From: Acidobacteriota bacterium
GTDB lineage: Bacteria > Acidobacteriota > Vicinamibacteria > Vicinamibacterales > CAVVIG01
Reading direction: 5' to 3'
DNA: 13,062 nucleotides
NCBI GenBank assembly: GCA_003222555.1
Contig: QHWL01000016.1
Location: 1,751 to 14,812 of the forward strand
Shown: piece after piece, positions 1,413 through 13,062 of the stretch
How the letters are laid out: each line of letters opens with the position of its first letter
How positions within the stretch are numbered: the stretch's first letter is position 1
Notes under the pieces: model-generated
What the model was told of the DNA's origin: nothing
The model's input: the letters and a program-made list of their open reading frames with translations, nothing else
Databases searched by the model: none
Translations under genes and position numbers: made by a program

Positions 1413-2183
1413 TCAGCCCGGCATCGACGGCGTCCCGCCTTCGGCGCTTCGGCCGGCTTGACGCCGGACGGCGGCTTCGTAATCGTCCTGCGGTTGGCGG
1501 CCGGTGGCATGCAAATACCACGCGGGATGGTGGGTCCATGCCCAGCGCTTCTCGACAGTGCCGCGCGTCATCGAGTGGAACGTGCCCGGCTGCGCGGCCG
1601 TGCCTTCGTAGATATGGACGATGAAGCCGACGAGCATCACGAGCGCCGCGAGATCGTGGAACACGTACCCGATGGCAGCCGTTGTCCGGCCGAAGGCCCT
1701 TGGAAACCACATCGGGACTCCCGAAATGAAGAAGATGACGGAGCTCCCGACGATCGCCCAGAAGTACAACTTCTGCCCGGCATTGAAGAAATCGACGTAT
1801 TCCGGCTCGAGTTTGTCCGTGTTGGCGACGTACTCCTTCAGTCGGCGCATCCATCGGGTGTCGTCTGGCGTCCATGACATCGGCTGGAGCCAGTTCAGAA
1901 GCTGCAGCGCGAAGAACGCGACGAACCCCAGACTGAACCAGGGATGCAGCAGCCGTGTCATCGGCCCGCCGCCGAAGAGCGGCGTCAGCACGCGATACAG
2001 CCACGGCGTGTAGATCGCCAAGCCGGAGAGGAGCGCGAGGATGAAGAACGCCGCGACGCTCCAATGCAGAACCCGCGAGTACACGGGATGGCGCAGCAGC
2101 TCGTTCTCGCGAACGAACGTGCGTCCGTGTGCCCCGAACCGCGCGCGTGCACCATCATCGAATCGTTCGACTGCCGTACTCAT
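1413..2183 (-). CDS. fdnI: Formate dehydrogenase gamma subunit, membrane cytochrome b556
   Basis: This 256-residue membrane anchor takes electrons from the beta subunit and passes them through two b hemes to quinone. Four membrane helices are visible at about 41-59, 82-100, 138-158 and 172-192. The histidines expected as heme ligands are present: His40 (or His32) near helix 1, His80 before helix 2, and His176 and His190 in helix 4 (HDLAALVMLVGFIVHIYEGT). This is the FdnI/FdoI arrangement. It is longer than E. coli FdnI (217 residues) because of a charged N-terminal lead of about 25 residues and a polar tail after WYLHATGR. The frame stays open upstream to 2312, but that part overlaps fdnH and looks like shadow sequence. 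The ATG at 2183 has AGAGGTG at 2189-2195 and overlaps the fdnH stop by four bases (ATGA), so translation is coupled. Confidence 0.94.
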   Translation of the reverse strand: MSTAVERFDDGARARFGAHGRTFVRENELLRHPVYSRVLHWSVAAFFILALLSGLAIYTPWLYRVLTPLFGGGPMTRLLHPWFSLGFVAFFALQLLNWLQPMSWTPDDTRWMRRLKEYVANTDKLEPEYVDFFNAGQKLYFWAIVGSSVIFFISGVPMWFPRAFGRTTAAIGYVFHDLAALVMLVGFIVHIYEGTAAQPGTFHSMTRGTVEKRWAWTHHPAWYLHATGRQPQDDYEAAVRRQAGRSAEGGTPSMPG

Positions 2184-3070
2184 CGCGGCACCTCTTGTCC
2201 CGGCGGCTGCGGCTGCGGTTCTTTCGGCCCCTGGCTGATGTAGTGGAAGAACGCCACAGGCGCTGCGAACAGGCTCAGCAGCAGCGCGATCGGCTTGGCG
2301 ACGCGCTTCCATGCGGTGTAGGTGACCGGAATCTGCGGGTTCGCCGGCAGGCCGCCGTACAGCTCCGGCTTCGTGATGTCGTGCAGCACGTAAATCACGT
2401 GGGTGCCGCCGACCGACGGCGGATCGTACACGCCGGCGTGCACAAATCCTGAATGCTCGCGGAGCTGGCGTGCGCGCGCTTCAGCCAGGCCGCGCATATC
2501 GGCCTTCGTGCCGAACTTCAGGCAGCCCGTCGGACACGCTTTGATGCACGCCGGTTCGAGCCCTTGTCCAACGCGGTCCGAGCACAACGTGCACTTGTAG
2601 ACCTTCTTCGTCGTGCTGTTGAACTTTGGAATATCGAACGGACACCCGGACACGCAGTACTGGCAGCCGATGCAGTTCTCCTGCTGGAAATCGACGATGC
2701 CGTTCGTGTACTGCACGATGGCGCCGTCGGCCGGACACGCGCGCAGGCACCCGGGATCTTCGCAGTGCATGCACTGGTCTTTGCGCATCAGCCACTGCAG
2801 CGTGCCGTCCTCACGCTGATGCTCATTGAACTTGATGAGATTCCAGTAGTTCCACGCAGTCGATGGCATGGTCTGGTACGTGTTGTCGAACGTCGTCTGC
2901 TGGAACGGCATGTCGTTCCACTCGACGCACGCAACCTCGCACGCCTTGCAGCCGATGCAGGTAGTGACGTCGATGTATTTGCAGATCTCTTCCGCACGCT
3001 GAACACCGGCACCGGGAACGGTGCCCGAATGGCCGGAAATCGCCTTGACCTGAAGTGTGCCCGTTGGCAT
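2180..3070 (-). CDS. fdnH: Formate dehydrogenase beta subunit, four [4Fe-4S] protein
   Basis: This 296-residue electron-transfer subunit of the FdnH/FdoH family has sixteen cysteines in four ferredoxin-like clusters: C38/41/44/48 (CIGCKACEVAC), C100/103/108/112 (CMHCEDPGCLRAC), C133/136/139/143 (CIGCQYCVSGC) and C160/163/175/179 (CTLC...ACIKAC). All are intact. A single membrane helix at about 260-279 anchors the C-terminus and leaves a proline-rich tail. There is no signal peptide, as usual for this family, because the subunit is exported by riding on the Tat-borne alpha subunit. The start is two bases after the alpha stop codon (TAG), with a GAGAAGG ribosome site inside the end of the alpha gene. 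It overlaps fdnI by four bases. Confidence 0.96.
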   Translation of the reverse strand: MPTGTLQVKAISGHSGTVPGAGVQRAEEICKYIDVTTCIGCKACEVACVEWNDMPFQQTTFDNTYQTMPSTAWNYWNLIKFNEHQREDGTLQWLMRKDQCMHCEDPGCLRACPADGAIVQYTNGIVDFQQENCIGCQYCVSGCPFDIPKFNSTTKKVYKCTLCSDRVGQGLEPACIKACPTGCLKFGTKADMRGLAEARARQLREHSGFVHAGVYDPPSVGGTHVIYVLHDITKPELYGGLPANPQIPVTYTAWKRVAKPIALLLSLFAAPVAFFHYISQGPKEPQPQPPGQEVPR

Positions 3071-3072
3071 GA

Positions 3073-6000
3073 CTATGCCTTCTCGATCTTTACGAGGAAC
3101 CCTTTGAATTCCGGCGTGTACGCGTTGGGGTCGATCGCGGTTGGCGATAGGAGATTCGCGGAGGTGAGCTCGGTCCGGCCGGCGTCTTCCGCGATCCCGC
3201 GATAGCCCCAGTGGATCGGAATACCGATCTGATAAGTTTTCCTGCCGTCGATCTGCATCGGCTTGATGCGGCGGGTCACCATCGCTTTCGCGATGTACGA
3301 GCCTCGTGCGCTCGAGACCTTCACGCGCTCACCGCCTTTGACGCCCATCTCGTCGGCGAGCTCCACCGGCACCTCCACGAACGGCTCCGGCACCAGCTCC
3401 ACATTCATCGGGTTGTTCTTGGTCCAGTAGTGATAGTGCTCGGTGAGTCGATACGTCGTGCAGACGACGTTGAAGCCTTGGCTCGGCGTCCCGTACTTGT
3501 CGAGCGGCGTCTTGAAGGTCTGCACGACGGGGTTGATCGACTGCGCCGGATGCAGCGGATTCGCAATCGGGCTTTCGATCGGTTCGTAGTACTCCGGGAA
3601 CGGACCGTCCTGAAACGCCGCGAGCGGGCCAAAGAGGCGACCGATGCCTTCCGGATTCATGATGAATGGACCCATATGATCCTTCGGCGGCGAATCAACC
3701 TTGAAATCCGGAACGTCGTTGCCCACCCACCTCCCGGACTCGTTCCACCAGACTTGACGCCGTTCGGGATCCCACGGCTTGCCGGACGGATCGCACGACG
3801 CGCGGTTGTACATCACGCGCCGGTTGGCCGGCCACGACCACGCCCAGTTCGGATAGATGCCGAGGCCCGAGGGATCTTCGGTGCCGCGGCGCTGGGTCAT
3901 CGCACCCGCTTCGGTCCACGACCCGGAATAGAGCCAATTGCCGCAGAGCGTTGTGCCATCGTCTTTCAGCGCCGCAAAGCCTGGCAATTGCTGTCCGGAC
4001 CTGATCGTCTGACCGGTTGGATCGGCGATGTCGGCCAGCGCCCGCCCGTTAATCTCCTTGGCGAGCTCCACGAACGACCGGTGCAGTGGATCGGTGTAGT
4101 TCCACGCGAGATTGACAATCGGATCGGGGAACTTCCCGCCTTCCTTTTGATACAACTCGCGGATCTTCAGGAAGATCAGCGACAGGATTTCCTGATCGAG
4201 CTTGGCGTCGCCAGGCGGGGTGATCGCGATATTCTTCCACTGCAGCCAGCGCGCGGAGTTGACAAAGGTCCCGTCCTTTTCCGCAAAGCCGGCGCACGGC
4301 AGCCGGTACACCGTCGTCTGAATCTTCTTCATCTCGTCGGGCGTGGTACCCGGCGCTCTCCAGAACTCGCTCGTCTCGTCCGGATAGATCTCGCCGACGA
4401 CGAGCCAGTCGGCTTTCTTCAGAGCCTCGATGTTCTTCTTGGAGTTGGGCCCGACTTGCACGCCGTTCATGCCGAAGGCGAACATCCCCCGGACGTGGCC
4501 GTTGTACATGTCGTCCCAAATCTCGACCCACGAGTACTTGCGATCGATCTTCGGGAGATAGTGGAACGCCCAGTCGTTCTCCTTCCTGGCCGCTTCGCCG
4601 TAAAGCGCCTTGAGAAACGACACCGCGAACTTCGGCGTGTTCGACCAGTAGTTGTAAGAGTCCCATTCGGCCGGTTTCGACGCGGTCGGGGTCGTCCGCT
4701 TGAGGTAGGTCGCGAAATCGACGTCGTCGGGCGCCGGCATCTTCAAATACCCCGGCAGAATGTCGAACACGCCGGCCATGTCTGTGGCGCCCTGGATGTT
4801 CGAGTGGCCGCGCAGCGCGTTGACGCCGCCGCCCGCTCGACCGACGTTGCCGAGCAGGAGCTGCAGCATTGCCGCGGTGCGAATGATCTGCGTGCCGAAG
4901 CTGTGCTGCGTCCAGCCAACGGCGTAAATGATCGTCGCGACCTTTTTCATGTCGCCGTCCTTGCGGACGGACGTGAAGAGGTCGGCCGCCTTGAGGAACT
5001 GATCCCGCGCAATTCCGGTGATCCGCTCGACCATCTCCGGCGTGTAGCGCGAGTAATGTTGCTTCAGGAGCTGGAAGACCGAACGCGAGTGCGCTAGCGT
5101 CACATCATAGGCAACGTTGGGCGGCAACGCCGCCGGCGCATTCCCACGTCCACTCGAACCGGCCGCTTCGTAGTTCCAGGTGGACTTGTCGTACTCGTGT
5201 GTCGACGGATCGAATCCGGAGTACAGCCCATCCTCCGGAAGTTTGAATCCTTCCTTGATGATGAATGCCGCATTCGTGTAATTGACCAGATAGTCGCGGG
5301 CGATGCGATTGTTCTGAATCGCGTAGTTGATGAGGCCGCCGAGAAACGCGATGTCGGCGCCAGCGCGGATCTGCAGGAATAGATCGGCATTGGCGGCCGT
5401 CCGGGTGAACCGGGGGTCGACGACGATGATCTTGGCGTTACGATGGAGCTTGGCTTCAATCGGCCACTTGAACCCGCACGGGTGGTTCTCGGCCGGGTTG
5501 CCACCCATGATCAACATCAGATCGGTGTTCTTGATGTCGATCCAGCCGTTGGTCATCGCGCCGCGTCCGAACGTGGGCCCCAAACTGGAGACCGTTGGCC
5601 CGTGTCAAACCCGGGCCTGGTTTTCCAGGTTGACCACCCCCAGACTGCGCATCGTCTTGACGACGAGATAATTGAGCTCGTTCGTGTCGGTGCAGCCACC
5701 CGTCCACGCGATGCCCTCGCAGCGGTTCACCGTCCGCCCGCGCACATCTTTTTCGATAAACGTCGCGTCGCGCGTCTTTTTGACAGCGCGCCCGATCTCG
5801 TCGACGGCGGTGTCCCAATCGATGTCCTCCCAACGATCGGAACCCGGCCGCCGGACCTGCGGTTTCAGCAGACGCCGGTCGTTCAGAATGTCCTGCTGCA
5901 GCGATGCGCCTTTGGGGCATAGCGTGCCGCGGTTGATGGGGTGATCCGGGTCTCCCTCGACGTGCACGACTTGCGCGACCGCGTTCTTCGATCGGTCGCC

Positions 6001-6186
6001 CAGCGTGTGAATGATGACGCCGCAGCTGACCGAGCAGTACGGACACGTGCTGCGCGTCTCACTCGTTCGAGAGATCTTGAGGGTCTTGGCTTGCGCCAGA
6101 ACCGGCGCGACGTCGAAGCCAAAAGCGGAGAGAGCTGCGCCGCCGACAATCGAACTCTGAAGGAACACTCGTCGGGAGATCGCCAT
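3073..6186 (-). CDS. fdnG: Selenocysteine-containing respiratory formate dehydrogenase alpha subunit, Tat-exported
   Basis: This is the catalytic subunit of an FdnG/FdoG-type formate dehydrogenase (formate to CO2 at a molybdenum or tungsten bis-MGD centre), about 1037 residues including selenocysteine. Translation must read through the TGA at 5605-5607 as Sec194. The residues before it (ENQARV) and after it (HGPTVSSL...PTFGRGAMTN) match the E. coli enzyme around its Sec196. The N-terminus has a twin-arginine signal, SRRVFLQ at 4-10, with a hydrophobic stretch ending near AQA (31-33), so the enzyme faces the periplasm. One [4Fe-4S] cluster is formed by C48, C51, C55 and C90. The C-terminal part is the molybdopterin dinucleotide-binding fold. 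The ATG at 6186 is chosen because GGAGGTG (6191-6197) stands just before it and the Tat motif begins at once; the longer frame starts with TTG. Without recoding, the gene would look like two pieces, 5605-6186 and 3073-5583. No frameshift is needed. Confidence 0.96.
5575..5607 (-). promoter_or_regulatory. bSECIS element directing selenocysteine insertion at UGA
   Basis: Counting the U of UGA as base 1 (position 5607), the downstream mRNA can form a hairpin. G15-G16 pair with C31-C32, U17 is bulged out, C18-U19-C20-C21 pair with G27-G30 (one U-G pair), and the loop is A22 G23 U24 U25 U26. The bulged U17 and the loop G23-U24 fall at the same positions that SelB needs in the E. coli fdhF element. 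The fold was worked out by hand from the sequence; it was not computed. It explains how this UGA is told apart from a stop. Confidence 0.88.
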
Positions 6187-6190
6187 CGGG

Positions 6191-6197
6191 CACCTCC
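6191..6197 (-). promoter_or_regulatory. Strong ribosome binding site deciding the fdnG start
   Basis: GGAGGTG lies four bases before the ATG at 6186. It falls inside the longer open frame that would begin at a TTG (6207), so it argues for the shorter product, whose Tat motif begins at residue 4. The 45-base gap between the amidohydrolase stop codon (6232) and this ATG otherwise holds no visible terminator. That is compatible with read-through from the upstream genes. Confidence 0.75.
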
Positions 6198-6231
6198 GGT
6201 GCGACAATCAGAAATGCACGCGACATACCGC

Positions 6232-7596
6232 TCAGGTCGGGTCGCGACTGAGGAGCGTGCCATACGGCGACGTCAACGTCAACCCGTCTCCACGTGAGTA
6301 AACGTTTCTGCCGCGAAGATACGTTCGTTCGACTACGCCGCGAAGCCGCCGGCCGAGGTACGGCGTCTGCTGATCACGCTGTGGGAGCGAAAGGCGCTCG
6401 ACCGTGAATTCCGCGTCCGGATCGAGCACGACCAGATCGGCGTCATATCCGACATCGATTCGTCCTTTACGACTGAGTCCGGCAAGCTGAGACGGCGCCA
6501 GACACATCCAGTTGGCGAGTTGATCGAGTGTGTAGCCGCGCGCACGTGCGCCGGTCCACGTCACGGGCAGGCTGAGCTGGAGCGACGGAAGCCCGCACCT
6601 TCCGTCCCGCGGCTCGGCCGCATGATCGGACACGACCATCTGGATGAGGCCGTTGGCAAGCGCGGCCCATAAGAATTCGCGGTTCGCGCGTTCGCGAATA
6701 GGCGGCGCGCACGTGAGGGACGTCGTGCCATCGGCGATCTCATCGGCGACGAAGTACAAATAGTGCGGACACGTTTCAGCCGTGATTGGCAGACGCGCCG
6801 TCCGGGCGTGAAACAGTGGCGTCAGTGCGTCGGAAGACGACAGATGAACGGCGTGCGTACGAGTGTGATGCTCACGGCAGAATTGGATGAGCCGGGCGAT
6901 GGCTTCGTTTTCCGCTTCTTTCGGACGGCCGGTGAGATACGTCGCGTACCGGCGCGAGGCTCGTGAGAGCCCGGGGATTCGATCGACCCATCGGCGCTCC
7001 AAGCGTTGACGCGCCCGAGCGTTCTCGATCGGCTGGGCCAGTTCGGCGTGCGCGAGGAGAGTGGCGCCGAGCTTCGCGAGCGCCGGCATCACGATCCGCA
7101 AATCGTCTTCCGAGACCGGTGGAAAGTCATCGCCCGCGCACGGAAGCAGAACACATTTGAACCCGAGCACGCCCGCCTCGAAGAGCGGCGCAAGGTCGCG
7201 CGCGTTACCCGGCACCACGCCTCCCCAGAAACCTACATCGACATAACAGGTACCTCCGGCGGCTCGACGCTTCGCCTCGAGCGCCGCCACCATTGTGGTT
7301 GCTGGCCCCGGAAACGGCATTTCCACGAGTGTCGTGATGCCGCCGGCGGCAGCCGCGCGAGTCGCGCTCTCGAACCCCGAGTCGCCGCGACCTGAACCAT
7401 GGGCATGCACGTGCGTGTCGACGACGCCGGGCATGATCACAGCCCCTGCTGCGTCATCGAGTGGGCAGCCGGGTGGCACGTCGTCGAAATCGAGAACGCC
7501 GATCACCCGCTCGTTGCGGATGTGGATGGCGGCGGGGCGTGTCCCGCGAGGGGTGACGACGCGGCGGCTGCGAACGACAAGCGAAGGAAGGAACAC
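6232..7596 (-). CDS. Allantoinase-like cyclic amidohydrolase (dihydroorotase/hydantoinase superfamily)
   Basis: This 454-residue protein has the usual length for allantoinase/dihydropyrimidinase enzymes, which open cyclic amide rings with a two-metal site. The metal ligands are all visible: H62 and H64 in DTHVHAH, the lysine to be carboxylated K147 in GFKC, H183 in LLAHAE, H251 in AVHLSS and D324 in VSDHA. Other signatures are CPHYLYF (276-282), CAPPIRER (296-303), GLPSLQLSLPV and the C-terminal KGRIDVGYDADLVVLD. By eye the closest known member is allantoinase (AllB), through EMPFPGP, GFKC, the CPHY and PPIR segments and PYLGRRLRGVVERTYLRG, but hydantoinase or another cyclic-amide substrate cannot be excluded. 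The start is a GTG one base after the fdhE stop codon, with no clear ribosome site, so coupling to fdhE is likely. Its place inside a formate dehydrogenase operon is unusual. No other purine or ureide gene is in view. Confidence 0.88.
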   Translation of the reverse strand: MFLPSLVVRSRRVVTPRGTRPAAIHIRNERVIGVLDFDDVPPGCPLDDAAGAVIMPGVVDTHVHAHGSGRGDSGFESATRAAAAGGITTLVEMPFPGPATTMVAALEAKRRAAGGTCYVDVGFWGGVVPGNARDLAPLFEAGVLGFKCVLLPCAGDDFPPVSEDDLRIVMPALAKLGATLLAHAELAQPIENARARQRLERRWVDRIPGLSRASRRYATYLTGRPKEAENEAIARLIQFCREHHTRTHAVHLSSSDALTPLFHARTARLPITAETCPHYLYFVADEIADGTTSLTCAPPIRERANREFLWAALANGLIQMVVSDHAAEPRDGRCGLPSLQLSLPVTWTGARARGYTLDQLANWMCLAPSQLAGLSRKGRIDVGYDADLVVLDPDAEFTVERLSLPQRDQQTPYLGRRLRGVVERTYLRGRNVYSRGDGLTLTSPYGTLLSRDPT

Positions 7597-7597
7597 G

Positions 7598-8392
7598 TCA
7601 GAGGCCGACGAGATTCAGCTCAATCTTCTCGTATCCGTGCTCGCGTGCCCACAGATCGAGTGGCGCTCCAGCGACTTCGTCCACGAGCGGCACGGCCAGA
7701 CCAAGTCGTCCGAGGTCGACACTCTTCAGATAGCGATGACAGCTGTGGCATGCGTCGAGGCGCAGGTGCTCGAATGCCGGCGATTGGAAGTACCCGAGCC
7801 TTCGTTCGTCCTCTTCGCCGCAGTGCGGACACAGGACGCGCCGGAAGGACCATTGCGTGAGGCACATTGCGCACAGCAGCAGGCGACTGCTGCCTTCGGC
7901 CGATGCTGCGCCGGCCGTCTCGAGAATCGACAACTGCGGAGCCCCTGCACAGCGCGGACAGCGGTTCGCCGCCTGCGCCGGGGCGCGATCGCTTGGTGTG
8001 ACGCCCGCGTCGACCAGCCACTGAGCGTAGGGTTGTAGAATCGCTTTGGGAAAGAACTGGCGATCGGAGGGAGCGGACCAGTACGTCAGCAATTGATTCG
8101 AGATCGCCGAGTTGGTCATTTCGAGGAGCGTCCGAGCTTCGCCGACAAGCCGGTCCGGTCCGTGGTGGGCGACCTCATGCAGCAGAGCGGAGCCACGCTC
8201 CATCACCAGCGGTAGATCCCGCTCGAGGCTCCCAGACGGTGGCCGACGGTGGAACGTGTCGTACACATCTTTCTGACTGCGGAGCAACCGACCATAAAAT
8301 GTCAGCAGCGGAGCCGACGGACCGCCCGTGGCGGCCAGTTGTTCGGCTCGGAGAATCCGCCGGTCCCACGAATCGCGCACGCGGGCCATCAT
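7598..8392 (-). CDS. fdhE: FdhE-type formate dehydrogenase maturation protein
   Basis: This 264-residue protein (E. coli FdhE is about 309) has the family's rubredoxin-like C-terminal half with four CxxC pairs: C145/148 (CPRC), C174/177 (CAMC), C188/191 (CPHC) and C215/218 (CHSCHRYLKSVD). These bind iron in E. coli FdhE, which acts in the cytoplasm on respiratory Tat-dependent formate dehydrogenases before export. The gene is followed directly by the amidohydrolase and then by the fdnGHI genes, as expected for an accessory factor. The frame stays open to a TTG at 8464, but that part overlaps a relic of another gene and reads as unrelated residues. I therefore chose ATG 8392; 8389 is an adjacent ATG. 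No clear Shine-Dalgarno sequence precedes either, so the mRNA may be leaderless or nearly so. The N-terminal part is shorter and more diverged than in E. coli. Confidence 0.9.
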   Translation of the reverse strand: MMARVRDSWDRRILRAEQLAATGGPSAPLLTFYGRLLRSQKDVYDTFHRRPPSGSLERDLPLVMERGSALLHEVAHHGPDRLVGEARTLLEMTNSAISNQLLTYWSAPSDRQFFPKAILQPYAQWLVDAGVTPSDRAPAQAANRCPRCAGAPQLSILETAGAASAEGSSRLLLCAMCLTQWSFRRVLCPHCGEEDERRLGYFQSPAFEHLRLDACHSCHRYLKSVDLGRLGLAVPLVDEVAGAPLDLWAREHGYEKIELNLVGL

Positions 8393-8411
8393 AGACCAGT
8401 AAGAAGCCAAG

Positions 8412-8467
8412 ATCGTTGCGGTGATAGCCGTCCTTGATGCGGCACTCGGCACCGAGCGCCTCAAATG
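8412..8467 (-). pseudogene. Relic fragment of a PaaK-like ligase gene
   Basis: This stretch matches 9900-9955, inside the ligase gene, at 53 of 56 bases in the same orientation. Read on the minus strand it encodes FEALGAECRIKDGYHRND, against FGALGAECRIQDGYHRND in the intact ligase (residues 251-268). Two differences change an amino acid and one is silent. Beyond 8411 the DNA diverges, but the frame still reads LGFLL opposite FSFFF, a conservative match. That suggests the remnant comes from a second, diverged ligase gene rather than from a simple copy. The frame differs from that of fdhE and there is no room for a full gene. It fills nearly all of the divergent gap between fdhE and tatC, so promoters for both must lie in or beside it. 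Confidence 0.8.
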
Positions 8468-8474
8468 GTAGGGC

Positions 8475-9308
8475 GTGTTAGTCTTTCAAGACCAGATGAC
8501 TTTGGTGCCCTTTTCAAGCAGGCGCTCGAAAGCGTCGGATTCGCCCTCCTCTTTCGACGGGCTGTTGGGGAACGTCTCTGTACTCGAACGTCTCGACGAA
8601 CTCCGGCGGCGGCTTGTCCATTCGGCCCTTGCGGTCTGCGTGGGCGTCCTCGCCGGATTCGCGTTCATCAATCAGGTTGTCACCTTCATTCTCGGTCCCA
8701 CTCGACGGGCGCTGCCGGGCGGTACCCGGCTGATCTACACGCAACCGGGCGAGGCGTTCGGGCTCTACATCAAGATTGCGCTGATCGTCGGCGTAGTCGT
8801 CGCAATGCCCTACATCATGTATCAGCTGTGGCAGCTCGTCGCGCCGCTAGTGCCGGTGACGGCGCGGCGATTCACAATCCCGTTCGTGCTGTTCACGACG
8901 CTGGGCTTCATCGCGGGGGCCGCGTTCACACATTTCTTGGCGTTTCCCTACCTGATGGTGTTCTTCGCCAGCTTCCATACGCCAGATCTGCTGTTCATGC
9001 CGAGGCTGGAAGACGTGTTCGACCTTTACGCGAACATGCTCCTCGCCATGGGGGCCGTGTTCCAAATGCCGACGGTCGTATTTTTTCTCGCGAAGACCGG
9101 GCTGGTCACGGCGGGACTTCTCTGGCGGAGCTTCCGCTACGCGTTCCTGCTGATCTTCATTGTTTCTGCTGTGATTACGCCGACCGGCGACATGGTCACG
9201 CAGACGATCTTTGCCGCCCCGATGGTGGGCTTATACGTCCTGAGCATTCTGATTGCGTGGGTGTTTGGCAAGGCTCGGCTGACGCCGAGCGATGAGTCGA
9301 GAGAATAA
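8475..9308 (+). CDS. tatC: Sec-independent (twin-arginine) translocase subunit TatC
   Basis: This 277-residue protein is the receptor and core channel subunit that recognises twin-arginine signals in the inner membrane. The family signature RLDELRRRL is at 39-47. The conserved periplasmic-loop motif PGEAF is at 91-95 (E93 corresponds to E. coli Glu103). MPYIMYQLWQLVAP (111-124) and VITPTGD (233-239) are also typical. Six hydrophobic segments fit the six-helix fold (about 50-74, 99-121, 137-165, 186-206, 222-236 and 246-265). The start is uncertain: GTG 8475 gives a 38-residue polar lead before the signature, longer than usual, while ATG 8496 or a later TTG would be nearer the family length. 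An AGGG lies just before the GTG. No tatA or tatB is adjacent. It diverges from fdhE and the Tat-dependent formate dehydrogenase operon, whose alpha subunit is an obvious client. Confidence 0.94.
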   Translation: MLVFQDQMTLVPFSSRRSKASDSPSSFDGLLGNVSVLERLDELRRRLVHSALAVCVGVLAGFAFINQVVTFILGPTRRALPGGTRLIYTQPGEAFGLYIKIALIVGVVVAMPYIMYQLWQLVAPLVPVTARRFTIPFVLFTTLGFIAGAAFTHFLAFPYLMVFFASFHTPDLLFMPRLEDVFDLYANMLLAMGAVFQMPTVVFFLAKTGLVTAGLLWRSFRYAFLLIFIVSAVITPTGDMVTQTIFAAPMVGLYVLSILIAWVFGKARLTPSDESRE

Positions 9309-9353: not shown

Positions 9354-10703
9354 CTACATGGGTAGCACCGATGGGTCGCTGCGCATCTGCCTCTGGTCGA
9401 CGACGCGGCGGAGCTTTCTGCCGTGTCCGCGCAAGCTGCCGGTGGGATGGACTATGACGCGCAGCTCGTACAAATGCATCTCACGGTTTCGCCAGAAGTC
9501 GCCGAAACGCTCGCGCAGGCTGGTCAGGATGCGGGTCTCGACAGCGCGCTGTCCCGAATGGCTCTCCATCTCAACGTGAAGGACGATGACATCGCGCGTG
9601 CCATCGTGCCCGACCACGGCCTGCCAATCGCTGCCGATGCACGTTGTACCACGCAGCACCTCGTCGAAGACCCACGGGCCAACGTTGCCCATGCCGCACA
9701 CCACCATTTCGTCGCACCGGCCGCGAATCTTTGCGAGGCGGCCCGTTGAGATGCCGCACTGACACTGGCCGTCCACCAATCGCGTGAGATCGCTCGATCG
9801 ATAGCGGATGAGCGGCATGACACGGTACGACAGCGTGGTGTAGACGACCTCGCCGTACCCGTCGGCATCCGCGACCGGCACCTCGAAGAAGAAGGAGAAA
9901 TCGTTGCGGTGATAGCCGTCCTGGATGCGGCACTCGGCGCCGAGCGCCCCAAATGATTCGGTCTGCCCGTAATTGAGATAGAGCGGCGCCCCCCAAGTCT
10001 CCTCGACCGCCAGCCGGGCGGACTCGGAGATGTTTTCGCCGCCCGCGAACAGGAATTTCAGCGGCCACGAGCCTCGGACCTGCGCTATCTCCGACAGTCG
10101 CACGACCCACGACGGCTCTCCAAAGATGACGGTCGGACGGTACTGTTTCGCGCGATCGTAGAACTCGCCCGCGTCGATCTTCCCGGCCTCGACGTGAAAG
10201 CAGCCGAGCAGGTCGAGCGCCGACCGCACCACATAGGGTGACACCCAGAACGAGCAATCGAAGGCGCTGACAACGCGATCGTCGGGACGCAAGCCGAGCA
10301 GATGCAGCCAGATCGCGCTCAGGCGTCCCATGTCGGCGATTTCACGACGGGAGAAGAACACGCGCTTGGGCACCGGAGACGTCGTGCCGGTTGTCTCGAA
10401 CGCCGTATCCGCGCGGCGCACGAGGAACTGGTCGGGGCCGTGCGATCGGAGATCCTCGCCAGTCGTGTAGAAATCGCCAAGCTGCGAAGGATGATCGATG
10501 CGGCGCACGTCGATGCCGCGGCGGCGAAACTGTTCGCGGTAGAACGTCGATCGCTCCGCCGCGATCCGCAGCGTGCGCCTGAAGCGCGCCAGACGCATCG
10601 CCTCCAATGCCGACGGAGGAATGAACCCGAGCAATTCGATCGCGCGCTGGGGGCTCGTGCGGAGGGCCAGGAGCTCGGCGAGTTCGACAAGCGAGGTCAG
10701 CAT
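9354..10703 (-). CDS. PaaK-like adenylate-forming ligase (phenylacetate-CoA ligase/F390 synthetase family)
   Basis: This 449-residue enzyme should activate a carboxylic acid as an acyl-adenylate and hand it to a thiol or amine acceptor. Core motifs are in order: the P-loop ETTGTTSPVPK (103-113), FAGGENISESAR (219-230), the A5 motif YGQTES (245-250), YRSSDL (301-306) with CQC (314-316) just after it, GRCDEMV (328-334), and a C-terminal catalytic-lysine region GHGRKLRR with K430. The length fits the PaaK family (about 430-450). The substrate is unknown: the P-loop and acid-pocket residues do not tell me phenylacetate from others, and no paa genes are nearby. It is the last gene of the run with the phosphatase and aminotransferase and starts 12 bases after the aminotransferase stop codon. 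LuxE-like acyl-protein synthetases are related and cannot be excluded. Confidence 0.85.
   Translation of the reverse strand: MLTSLVELAELLALRTSPQRAIELLGFIPPSALEAMRLARFRRTLRIAAERSTFYREQFRRRGIDVRRIDHPSQLGDFYTTGEDLRSHGPDQFLVRRADTAFETTGTTSPVPKRVFFSRREIADMGRLSAIWLHLLGLRPDDRVVSAFDCSFWVSPYVVRSALDLLGCFHVEAGKIDAGEFYDRAKQYRPTVIFGEPSWVVRLSEIAQVRGSWPLKFLFAGGENISESARLAVEETWGAPLYLNYGQTESFGALGAECRIQDGYHRNDFSFFFEVPVADADGYGEVVYTTLSYRVMPLIRYRSSDLTRLVDGQCQCGISTGRLAKIRGRCDEMVVCGMGNVGPWVFDEVLRGTTCIGSDWQAVVGHDGTRDVIVLHVEMESHSGQRAVETRILTSLRERFGDFWRNREMHLYELRVIVHPTGSLRGHGRKLRRVVDQRQMRSDPSVLPM
9900..9955 (-). repeat. Intact partner of the duplicated 56-bp segment
   Basis: This part of the ligase gene (residues 251-268, just after the A5 motif) is 53/56 identical to 8412-8467, in direct orientation and 1488 bases away. 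The two copies bracket tatC and the 3' third of the ligase gene. Similarity drops sharply on the plus-strand right side after CAAATG and fades on the left. Confidence 0.85.
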
Positions 10704-10715
10704 CTTAGAACCCGC

Positions 10716-12101
10716 TCACACCCGCTCCGGCGCGCATCGTCGAATGAGTTGCTCCAGCAGCTCGACCCCGAGATCGATCTCGTCTTCGGTGATCTCGAAA
10801 CATGGCGCGAGCGTGAACACGTTCTTGTAGTACCCGCCTACATCGAGGATCAATCCCATGCGCTTGCCGCGGGCGATCAGGTCACCCTTCAGGCCTTCCA
10901 CAAAAATTCTGTCCGTCAGCGCGCGATCGGGCTCAAAGCCATCCCCTCCGCAGATCTCGATGCGAAGCGCCATCCCCATGCCATCGGTGTGGCCGATCAC
11001 CTTTGGATAGCGACGCTGCAAGTCCTTGATCTGCGAAAGGAAATATGCCCCCTTTCGGTTCGTGGTGTCCTCGTAGTCGTGTTCGGCCATCATGCGGACA
11101 GCCTCGAGCGCCACCGCCGTGCCAAGGGTGTTCGACGAGAACGTCGAATGCGTCGATCCAGGCGGGAACACCTCGGGCGAGATCAGATCCTCGCGCGCCC
11201 ACACGCCGCTGAGCGGATTGAGCCCGTTGGTCAAAGCCTTCCCGAACACGATGATGTCCGGCGCGACGCCGAAATTTTCGATGGCCCAGAACTTCCCGGC
11301 CCGGTAGAACCCCATCTGGATCTCATCGTCGACCATGAGGATGTGGCGCTCGTCGAGGATCTTCCTGAGACCGGCGAAGTAGCCGGGAGGCGGAATCACG
11401 TAGCCGCCGGTACCCTGAATCGGCTCGATATAGAAAGCGGAGAACTCGGATTCGCCCGTTTTCCCGTCCCAGAACGAGTTGTACTCGGAGTCGAAATTCT
11501 GCTCGAACTGCTTCAGGCAGTACAGCCCGCAGTCGTCGAACTTCTTGTCGTACGGGCACCGGAAACAGTAGGGGAACGGCACGAAGTGCGCCCGATCGGA
11601 AAAATGCCCGTAGCGGCGGCGATACCGGTAGCTCGATGTGATGGCGCTCGCGGCCAGGGTCCGGCCGTGATATCCGCCCATGAACGCGAACACCAGGTTC
11701 TTGCCGGTCGCGTTCCGCACGAGTTTGAGCGAGTCCTCGATCGCCTGCGAGCCGCCGACGTTGAAATGCACGCGGCCGTCGATGCCGAACCGGGACGCGT
11801 TCAGCCGGCCAATCGCCGCAGCGAGTTCGATCTTGTCCGCATGAAGGTACTGACAAGCGAGCTGCGGCAGCGTATTCAGTTGCCGCGTGAGCGCCGCGTT
11901 CAGGCGGCGGTTGCCGTACCCGAAGCTCGCCGCCGAGTACCACATCTGCAAATCGAGATACGGCGTGCCCTCCCGGTCGTACAGATAACTGCCCTCCGAG
12001 CGCTCGAAACACTTCGGCGGATCCAGGTAATGGACCGTGTCGCCCCACGAACAGTGCTTGCGTTCCAGCTCGAGAAGTTCGGCCTCGGTCTTGTTGCTCA
12101 T
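10716..12101 (-). CDS. Class III PLP-dependent aminotransferase
   Basis: This 461-residue protein is a class III (omega-type) aminotransferase. The PLP-binding lysine is K288 in FGKALTNG, the aspartate pairing with the pyridine nitrogen is D259 in MVDDEIQMG, and the phosphate cup includes GGSQAIE (116-122) and STHSTFSSN (316-324). YHGRT (144-148) and EPIQGTGGYV (226-235) are also diagnostic. It is closest by eye to the 4-aminobutyrate, putrescine or ornithine aminotransferase branch that carries a cysteine-rich insert, here C179, C182, C191 and C195 (CFRCPY...CGLYC). The amino donor or acceptor cannot be read from sequence. The ATG at 12101 overlaps the phosphatase stop by four bases (ATGA), with a weak AAGG upstream, so expression is coupled. 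Together with the phosphatase and ligase it suggests a pathway that makes an amino compound and then activates or ligates an acid. Confidence 0.92.
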   Translation of the reverse strand: MSNKTEAELLELERKHCSWGDTVHYLDPPKCFERSEGSYLYDREGTPYLDLQMWYSAASFGYGNRRLNAALTRQLNTLPQLACQYLHADKIELAAAIGRLNASRFGIDGRVHFNVGGSQAIEDSLKLVRNATGKNLVFAFMGGYHGRTLAASAITSSYRYRRRYGHFSDRAHFVPFPYCFRCPYDKKFDDCGLYCLKQFEQNFDSEYNSFWDGKTGESEFSAFYIEPIQGTGGYVIPPPGYFAGLRKILDERHILMVDDEIQMGFYRAGKFWAIENFGVAPDIIVFGKALTNGLNPLSGVWAREDLISPEVFPPGSTHSTFSSNTLGTAVALEAVRMMAEHDYEDTTNRKGAYFLSQIKDLQRRYPKVIGHTDGMGMALRIEICGGDGFEPDRALTDRIFVEGLKGDLIARGKRMGLILDVGGYYKNVFTLAPCFEITEDEIDLGVELLEQLIRRCAPERV

Positions 12102-12820
12102 ACTGGTGGGAATACCTTACCGCAGAGCGACGGCGGCCGCCCCAGGCCAGCTCCCAGCAATCGGTCGATACCCTCGGCAACCGCCGCGAGCGTGCGATAG
12201 GGCGTGTACGCGATTGACGCCTTGTCGCAGGCCGCCGCCAACTTGTCCTTGGCGAACACGATGTTCGCAGAGTTCGCCGCCCACCGATCGGACATCCCGT
12301 CTCCGACAAACACGGTGACGGCGCCGACTCCTTTCAGGCAATCCATCGCCCTGGGCTTGCAGGTCGCGCAACCGTGCGCGCACGGCTCGGGCGGGTGCGG
12401 GAAGCTCGCCAGCCACCGCCTGCCGTTCGGGCGCAGGCTGCTCGACACGATGTGCGAGTTGGTCAGGCGCGTGAGAACATTCACGTCCCTTCGCCCCAGA
12501 ATTCGCTCAATGCAGTAATCAAAGCCGTCGCTGACGATATGGACTGGCACACCAAGCGCCTCACAGGTATCGAGCAACCCGGCCAGGCCCGGATCGACGC
12601 TGATGTCATCCAGCAAGCGGTCGACCTGCTCCCTGGTCGCGCTCACAAGCGCCATCTGGGCAGCCAGACACTCCCGCGATCCGATCCGTCCGGACAACCA
12701 CGCCTCCTCGACCTGCAGCCACGCCGAATCGGCGAACGCCTCGAGAATGGCATCGGTCGCATCACGAAGCGTGATGGTCCCGTCGAAGTCGAGAAAGACG
12801 ACCGCATCTGGTCCAAGCAT
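12098..12820 (-). CDS. HAD-superfamily phosphatase, MtnX/phosphoserine-phosphatase-like
   Basis: This 240-residue enzyme is close in size to B. subtilis MtnX (235). HAD motif I is DFDGT with the nucleophile D11 and acid D13, motif II is S97 in IVSDG, motif III is probably K155, and motif IV is GDGMSD (173-178) with D174 and D178. The MtnX-type cysteine stretch is kept: FPHPPEPCAHGCATCKP, C147, C151 and C154 beside K155. MtnX removes phosphate from a methionine-salvage intermediate, but no other mtn gene is here, and the tie to an aminotransferase and a ligase argues for another phosphate ester. The frame stays open upstream to 12913, but that lead is Arg-rich shadow sequence overlapping the previous gene. 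ATG 12820 puts motif I ten residues in, as in relatives. It starts 14 bases after the stop codon of the previous gene and overlaps the next gene by four bases. Confidence 0.87.
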   Translation of the reverse strand: MLGPDAVVFLDFDGTITLRDATDAILEAFADSAWLQVEEAWLSGRIGSRECLAAQMALVSATREQVDRLLDDISVDPGLAGLLDTCEALGVPVHIVSDGFDYCIERILGRRDVNVLTRLTNSHIVSSSLRPNGRRWLASFPHPPEPCAHGCATCKPRAMDCLKGVGAVTVFVGDGMSDRWAANSANIVFAKDKLAAACDKASIAYTPYRTLAAVAEGIDRLLGAGLGRPPSLCGKVFPPV

Positions 12821-12834
12821 GAACCCGAGTCCAA

Positions 12835-13062
12835 CTAGGACGTGACCGGCACACGCGTCCAGCTGCCTATCTGGTCGACGACGTCGGCGGTCACGGCGGC
12901 TTCGCCGCGCCATACCGCCTTCATGAGCGCGGTGCGCGGAGCACGGAGCGGCCGGATGCCGTCCAGGTCCGGTCTGATGTAGATGAGTGAATCGTCAACC
13001 GGCGGAGGGGCGGGAGCAGAAAACCGACAATCGGATACGATGACGTGTGTAGCGCCCAACAG
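12835..13062 (-). CDS. C-terminal end of an unidentified protein, cut by the window edge
   Basis: About 75 C-terminal residues are visible, ending at TAG (12835-12837); the frame remains open to the last base of the window. It reads as a real gene rather than a shadow: it begins with a strand-like LLGATHVIVSDCRF, then a Pro-rich stretch, then a predicted helix (RTALMKAVWRGEAAVTADVV), and it sits 14 bases ahead of the phosphatase start with no terminator between. The 5' end is missing, so no start can be given; a TTG near 13059 is only an open codon in frame. I do not recognise the family. Its position makes it the presumed first visible gene of the phosphatase-aminotransferase-ligase run. Confidence 0.6.
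   Translation of the reverse strand: MLGATHVIVSDCRFSAPAPPPVDDSLIYIRPDLDGIRPLRAPRTALMKAVWRGEAAVTADVVDQIGSWTRVPVTS

Follow-up and report, generated by a model that had tools for sequence, protein, structure and literature searches.

The window, by which we mean the whole stretch of 13,062 nucleotides that was analysed, carries an operon with the gene order fdnG-fdnH-fdnI, encoding the alpha, beta and gamma subunits of a formate dehydrogenase-N (Table 1). The profiles for the beta and the gamma subunit both matched above their cut-offs; the open reading frame of fdnI extends to position 2312, with a likely ATG start codon at 2183. A mechanical ORF finder reported fdnG as two open reading frames, 5605-6207 and 3073-5583, which belong to one frame and are separated by a TGA, just as the first-pass annotation had expected automated callers to split the gene. 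For the downstream part (3076-5583) the match to TIGR01553 reached 1,076 bits (cut-off 814.2), and the N-terminal part alone scored 234.7 bits. With the TGA read as selenocysteine (Sec) the gene starts at the ATG at 6186 and encodes 1,037 residues, about 840 of its codons lying in the open frame downstream of the TGA. The translated context of the codon is ENQARV-U-HGPTVSSLGPTFGRG, also written ENQARV-U-HGPT.

Table 1. Genes and sequence features of the formate dehydrogenase locus, with positions in the window.
Feature	Position	Strand	Basis
fdnG, formate dehydrogenase-N alpha subunit	3073-6186	minus	TIGR01553 on both parts
SRRVFL, presumed twin-arginine motif in the FdnG signal peptide	6160-6177	minus	translation
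in-frame TGA, very probably the Sec codon, residue 194 counted from the ATG at 6186	5605-5607	minus	translation; aligned with Sec of E. coli FdnG
SECIS element, Rfam SECIS_3 (RF01989)	5552-5610	minus	63.8 bits, cut-off 63, E 3e-13
upper hairpin, nt 15-32 (U of UGA = 1)	5576-5593	minus	sequence
fdnH, iron-sulphur beta subunit	2180-3070	minus	TIGR01582, 350.5 bits, cut-off 334.7
fdnI, cytochrome b gamma subunit	1413-2183	minus	TIGR01583, 141.4 bits, cut-off 115.85
allantoinase-like gene between fdnG and the fdhE-like gene	6232-7596	minus	TIGR03178, 425.7 bits, cut-off 357.85
fdhE-like gene, formate dehydrogenase accessory protein	7598-8464	minus	TIGR01562, 61.9 bits, below the cut-off of 187.65
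tatC, twin-arginine translocase subunit	8475-9308	plus	TIGR00945, 159.1 bits, cut-off 132.7

The fdhE-like gene additionally matched the Pfam family FdhE_C with 31 bits, above the cut-off of 27. The conservation of the gene neighbourhood was assessed in 93 fdnG loci (L019-L111, the locus of the window included), where a match to fdnH was present near fdnG in all 93 and a match to fdhE in 72, although some matches may have escaped the counts owing to short flanks. Allantoinase was matched close to fdnG in five of these loci, namely L019, L020, L100, L101 and L099, the last being the window itself; the other four belong to close relatives, and L020 and L101 carry an identical FdnG. The allantoinase-like gene is given no role in the mechanism discussed below. 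At the margins of the window, genes for an AMP-ligase-like protein, a class III aminotransferase-like protein and an HAD-IB phosphatase (MtnX-like) follow each other on the minus strand at 9354-12913, most of their best matches being below the curated cut-offs. On the plus strand at 142-1382, an ORF of 276 amino acids without a Pfam match and a gene for a small c-type cytochrome (PF13442, above cut-off) are arranged convergently with fdnI.

The closest known system is FdnGHI of E. coli, whose formate dehydrogenase-N is a textbook example of an enzyme containing Sec. BLASTP aligned the two alpha subunits over their full length with 508 identical residues at 1,044 aligned positions (49%), and the TGA fell exactly on the Sec codon of E. 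coli FdnG, followed in both proteins by His; the position known from FdnG/FdoG enzymes, to which the TGA had been assigned from the letters of the DNA alone, was thus recovered by alignment. The E. coli operon has the same gene order, and it differs from the window with regard to the allantoinase-like gene between fdnG and the fdhE-like gene. The best PDB sequence for FdnG was 1kqf_A, the E. coli enzyme, with 1,083 bits. The Sec-containing formate dehydrogenase alpha subunits in the PDB entries 8cm4, 6sdr and 9qm0 were also matched nearly over the full length, but with lower scores (880-885 bits), and the operon of the window is set apart from them by its gene for a cytochrome b gamma subunit, which soluble formate dehydrogenases lack. 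The in-frame UGA is very probably read as selenocysteine, as it is in E. coli, and fdnG of the window is a further member of an already known kind of selenoprotein gene, a sound but ordinary example of it. In annotation it should remain one selenoprotein gene and not be divided into two fragments.

A TGA within a coding frame may also be a nonsense mutation in a pseudogene or a miscalled Cys codon. Such an explanation would find some footing in the state of the genome, which is a draft of 784 contigs with a completeness of 82% and in which the assembled selA gene shows a frame change; it is opposed by the open frame of about 840 codons, by wobble bases that are held fixed after the TGA and by the orthologues. 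The same TGA was present in 80 of 80 orthologous GTDB loci (the best 80 of 337). Likewise, in a set of 60 genomes, comprising the genome of the window and 59 relatives, it was found in all 20 relative genomes in which the site is covered by a match with 44% identity or more; G013 has a C-terminal FdnG fragment only. A Cys form at the Sec site was not seen among the best 80 of the 337 GTDB loci or in the 20 genomes. Since the relatives share the TGA, the sequencing error that the first-pass annotation had named as a possible refutation is very unlikely, and a pseudogene or miscall, which we consider extremely improbable, is refuted by the relatives unless the error is common to them all. The distribution of FdnG itself is patchy, a close match being missing from the second genome of the genus (G001, 79% complete). 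Weaker FdnG-like matches of 31-37% identity with an in-frame TGA were observed at G048:C23, G040:C27, G055:C11, G045:C4, G057:C9, G049:C69 and G039:C40, the last of which also contains a TAG; these are probably other Sec-containing molybdopterin oxidoreductases. For comparison, three selenoprotein families with four selenoproteins were counted for Acidobacteria in the available part of a survey from 2006 (PMC1794560).

The search of the genome for selA, selB, selC and selD that had been proposed as a check on the Sec codon returned all four genes. The tRNA-Sec gene (selC) was detected with 60.4 bits and was also called by ARAGORN as tRNA-SeC with the anticodon tca. The selB gene is present in two pieces, one at the end of contig C613 that corresponds to profile positions 1-255 (290.5 bits) and a C-terminal one on contig C501 (38.2 bits). 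SelA scored 506.9 bits, with a frame change near the C-terminal end in the assembly, and SelD scored 353.7 bits, with one in-frame TGA. At the selA locus (L014 1338-2748, contig C462) an ORF of 419 amino acids is found, and the family match is completed in a different frame. The TGA of selD at L016 1532-1534 (contig C679) stands in the context MVACAG-TGA-ASK, as translated by eye. No Rfam SECIS element was matched at E up to 1 in this selD locus, so that the case for Sec at its TGA comes from the family alignment; by that alignment, the genome probably encodes SelD as a further selenoprotein. The accessible text of the 2006 paper (PMC1794560) names the SelD and FdhA families as those in which most Sec-to-Cys conversions took place.

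Among the 60 genomes, tRNA-Sec was found with at least 55 bits, a threshold of our own choice (the cut-off of the family is 47), in 46 genomes with or without FdnG and in 15 of the 20 genomes with a TGA-containing fdnG. Its presence regardless of FdnG made it of little use as a partner test for the latter. Three of the five TGA-fdnG genomes without tRNA-Sec at this threshold have SelB above cut-off. The remaining two, G032 (94% complete) and G047 (74% complete), have neither tRNA-Sec with at least 55 bits nor SelB above cut-off, an observation that counts slightly against the simple picture and is perhaps due to incomplete genomes.

The UGA could alternatively stand for a different residue, for example Trp, through reassignment or readthrough, with no selenocysteine involved. 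Nothing beyond the in-frame TGA itself speaks for such a reading, to which we assign hardly any probability, and it is at odds with the Sec residue at the aligned position of E. coli formate dehydrogenase-N, with the SECIS match directly after the TGA, with the Sec machinery in the genome and with the ORF list, which shows no in-frame TGA in the remaining genes of the window. Very probably, and close to certainly, the UGA of fdnG is a Sec codon, the gene encoding the catalytic subunit of FdnGHI, a respiratory formate dehydrogenase-N bound to the membrane, and Sec would be inserted with the aid of a SECIS element and SelB. By analogy with E. coli, SelB loaded with Sec-tRNA would bind the SECIS hairpin just 3' of the UGA and deliver selenocysteine there, Sec-194 would serve as a ligand to the bis-MGD metal, FdnG would be exported by the Tat system, and electrons from formate would pass via FdnH and FdnI to quinone.

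The covariance model search that had been suggested for the region after the TGA identified SECIS_3, the Rfam model for fdnG/fdoG, and no other Rfam family matched the window at E up to 1. All positions of the model (1-59 of 59) are covered, but the score is barely above the cut-off and several pairs of the lower stem are non-standard. Folding stability was considered as further support for the hairpin and rejected, the hairpin being no more stable than shuffled sequences (z 0.12 for 41 nt and -0.66 for 33 nt).

Codon usage in the orthologues was more informative. For this and for the comparisons of hairpin positions, 99 loci were used, consisting of 98 of the loci L019-L118 (L115 and L118, fragments without the motif, were dropped) and E. 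coli fdnG (L129). Tests on synonymous sites were restricted to 84 genes by leaving out the partial genes L112 and L117, the distant L116 and 12 loci with other bases at nt 21 and nt 30, E. coli among them; the 84 genes are not independent, and two pairs of rows have identical proteins. Synonymous entropy averaged 1.19 bits over 656 scored columns, and the lowest value among 647 ten-codon intervals, 0.336 bits, was obtained for codons -1 to +8 relative to the UGA. The next separate stretch of low entropy comprises codons +20 to +34 (0.43); low entropy is thus not confined to the Sec region, although it reaches its minimum there. Ser +7 is encoded by AGT in all 83 genes with Ser at this position, compared with 236 of 3,853 Ser codons elsewhere in the same genes, and further codons are invariant or nearly so (+4 ACG in 84/84, +5 GTC in 84/84, +8 TTG in 83/84). 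This constancy is not demanded by the protein and therefore points to an RNA element; the pattern of codons indicates that selection acts at the RNA level around the UGA.

According to the available text of a review from 2021 (PMC8659212), U17, located in a bulge, and G23 of the bacterial SECIS bind SelB, and mutation of either abolishes reading of the UGA. The first-pass annotation had described the hairpin of the window with exactly these features, a bulged U17 and G23-U24 in the loop. The nucleotides are in place (U17 at 5591, G23 at 5585, U24 at 5584) and do not vary among the 99 loci, one of which is that of E. coli; since U17 and G23 are second codon positions, U24 as a wobble base is the only one of the three that provides independent evidence. 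The bulge stood up less well, since it belongs to one of two folds of nearly equal energy. The upper hairpin of the window has -7.1 kcal/mol with U17 bulged (C18-G30, C21-G27) and -7.4 kcal/mol with U17 paired to G30. E. coli fdnG shares the SECIS directly after the UGA with U17, G23 and U24 but differs in that the bulged form is clearly better (-6.0 vs +2.7 kcal/mol, nt 14-33), and U17 was unpaired in the minimum-energy fold of nt 14-33 in three of the 99 loci, namely E. coli, L051 and L107.

The two folds are distinguished by nt 21 (5587), the wobble base of Ser +6, and nt 30 (5578), the wobble base of Gly +9. Among the 84 orthologues the combination C/G, as in the window, was found 36 times, A/A 48 times and a mixed state never, and at both sites two of the four codons are used. 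For the commonest A/A form the bulged register was calculated at +3.8 kcal/mol, compared with -10.0 kcal/mol for a full stem with U17-A30 and A21-U26, and the energy of this full stem ranged from -9.6 to -10.0 kcal/mol across the A/A forms. Judged from these energies, a U17 bulge is unlikely in 48 of the 84 orthologues. In the bulged register, pair 18-30 occurs as C-G and G-C and pair 19-29 as U-G, G-C and C-G, variation which supports the helix of that register in loci outside the A/A class. The bSECIS model given in the accessible part of a 2026 review (PMC13188914) has a small loop with G within the first two positions. Loops of this form are present in the A/A register (A-G-U-U) and, when U17 is bulged, in the window (G-U-U). 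With U17 paired, the loop in the window would be C-A-G-U-U-U, which departs from the model, and this speaks for the bulge in the class to which the window belongs.

Within a distance of 15 codons, nt 21 and nt 30 were the most tightly linked of 3,351 pairs of synonymous sites, with a normalised mutual information of 1.0 and 0.439 for the next pair. Linkage of this kind may also result from common descent or from exchange of short DNA segments, without any choice of register. The tree offers this explanation some room: at least six switches of the joint state were placed on a quick maximum-likelihood tree, with only four of them on well-supported branches, and the joint change of nt 21 and nt 30 in four of four supported independent pairs gives p 0.125 in a sign test, too few pairs for significance, the 84 genes moreover not being independent. 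Descent or exchange is less easily reconciled with the rank of this pair among all pairs, with the complete stem that each joint state forms in its own register and with the use of two of the four codons at each site; we regard it as somewhat doubtful while leaving it considerable weight. On the simplest reading of the sequences, selection would maintain one or the other of two good hairpins, both of them acceptable to SelB in these bacteria. Our tentative proposal, to which we would give a little less than an even chance, is that the fdnG SECIS of Acidobacteriota exists in two interchangeable registers, one with a bulged U17 (C21/G30) and one with an unbroken stem including U17-A30 (A21/A30), between which several paired synonymous switches have occurred, and that SelB would need only G23-U24 in the loop, perhaps also the identity of U17, and no bulge.

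A register-switching or bulge-free bacterial SECIS was not found in the portions of the open-access literature on SelB and SECIS that were available. A SECIS with two registers would be new, the gene itself being known in kind, and if about half of the orthologues of one phylum pair U17, the rule of the bulged U17 would be narrower than stated. The C-terminal domain of SelB was alike across both SECIS classes in six genomes and in the fragment from the genome of the window, that of G426 being more divergent (G011, with SelB in two pieces, was left out of this comparison); the similarity of this last domain does not point to an altered reader. When the phylum was searched with a pattern for the VSSLG-type element, hits were obtained in five of 396 genomes of the phylum, including the one of the window, too few for a broad survey of mixed states. 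In the four extra loci contributed by the phylum search, nt 21 and nt 30 were in matched states only, three of them A/A and one C/G.
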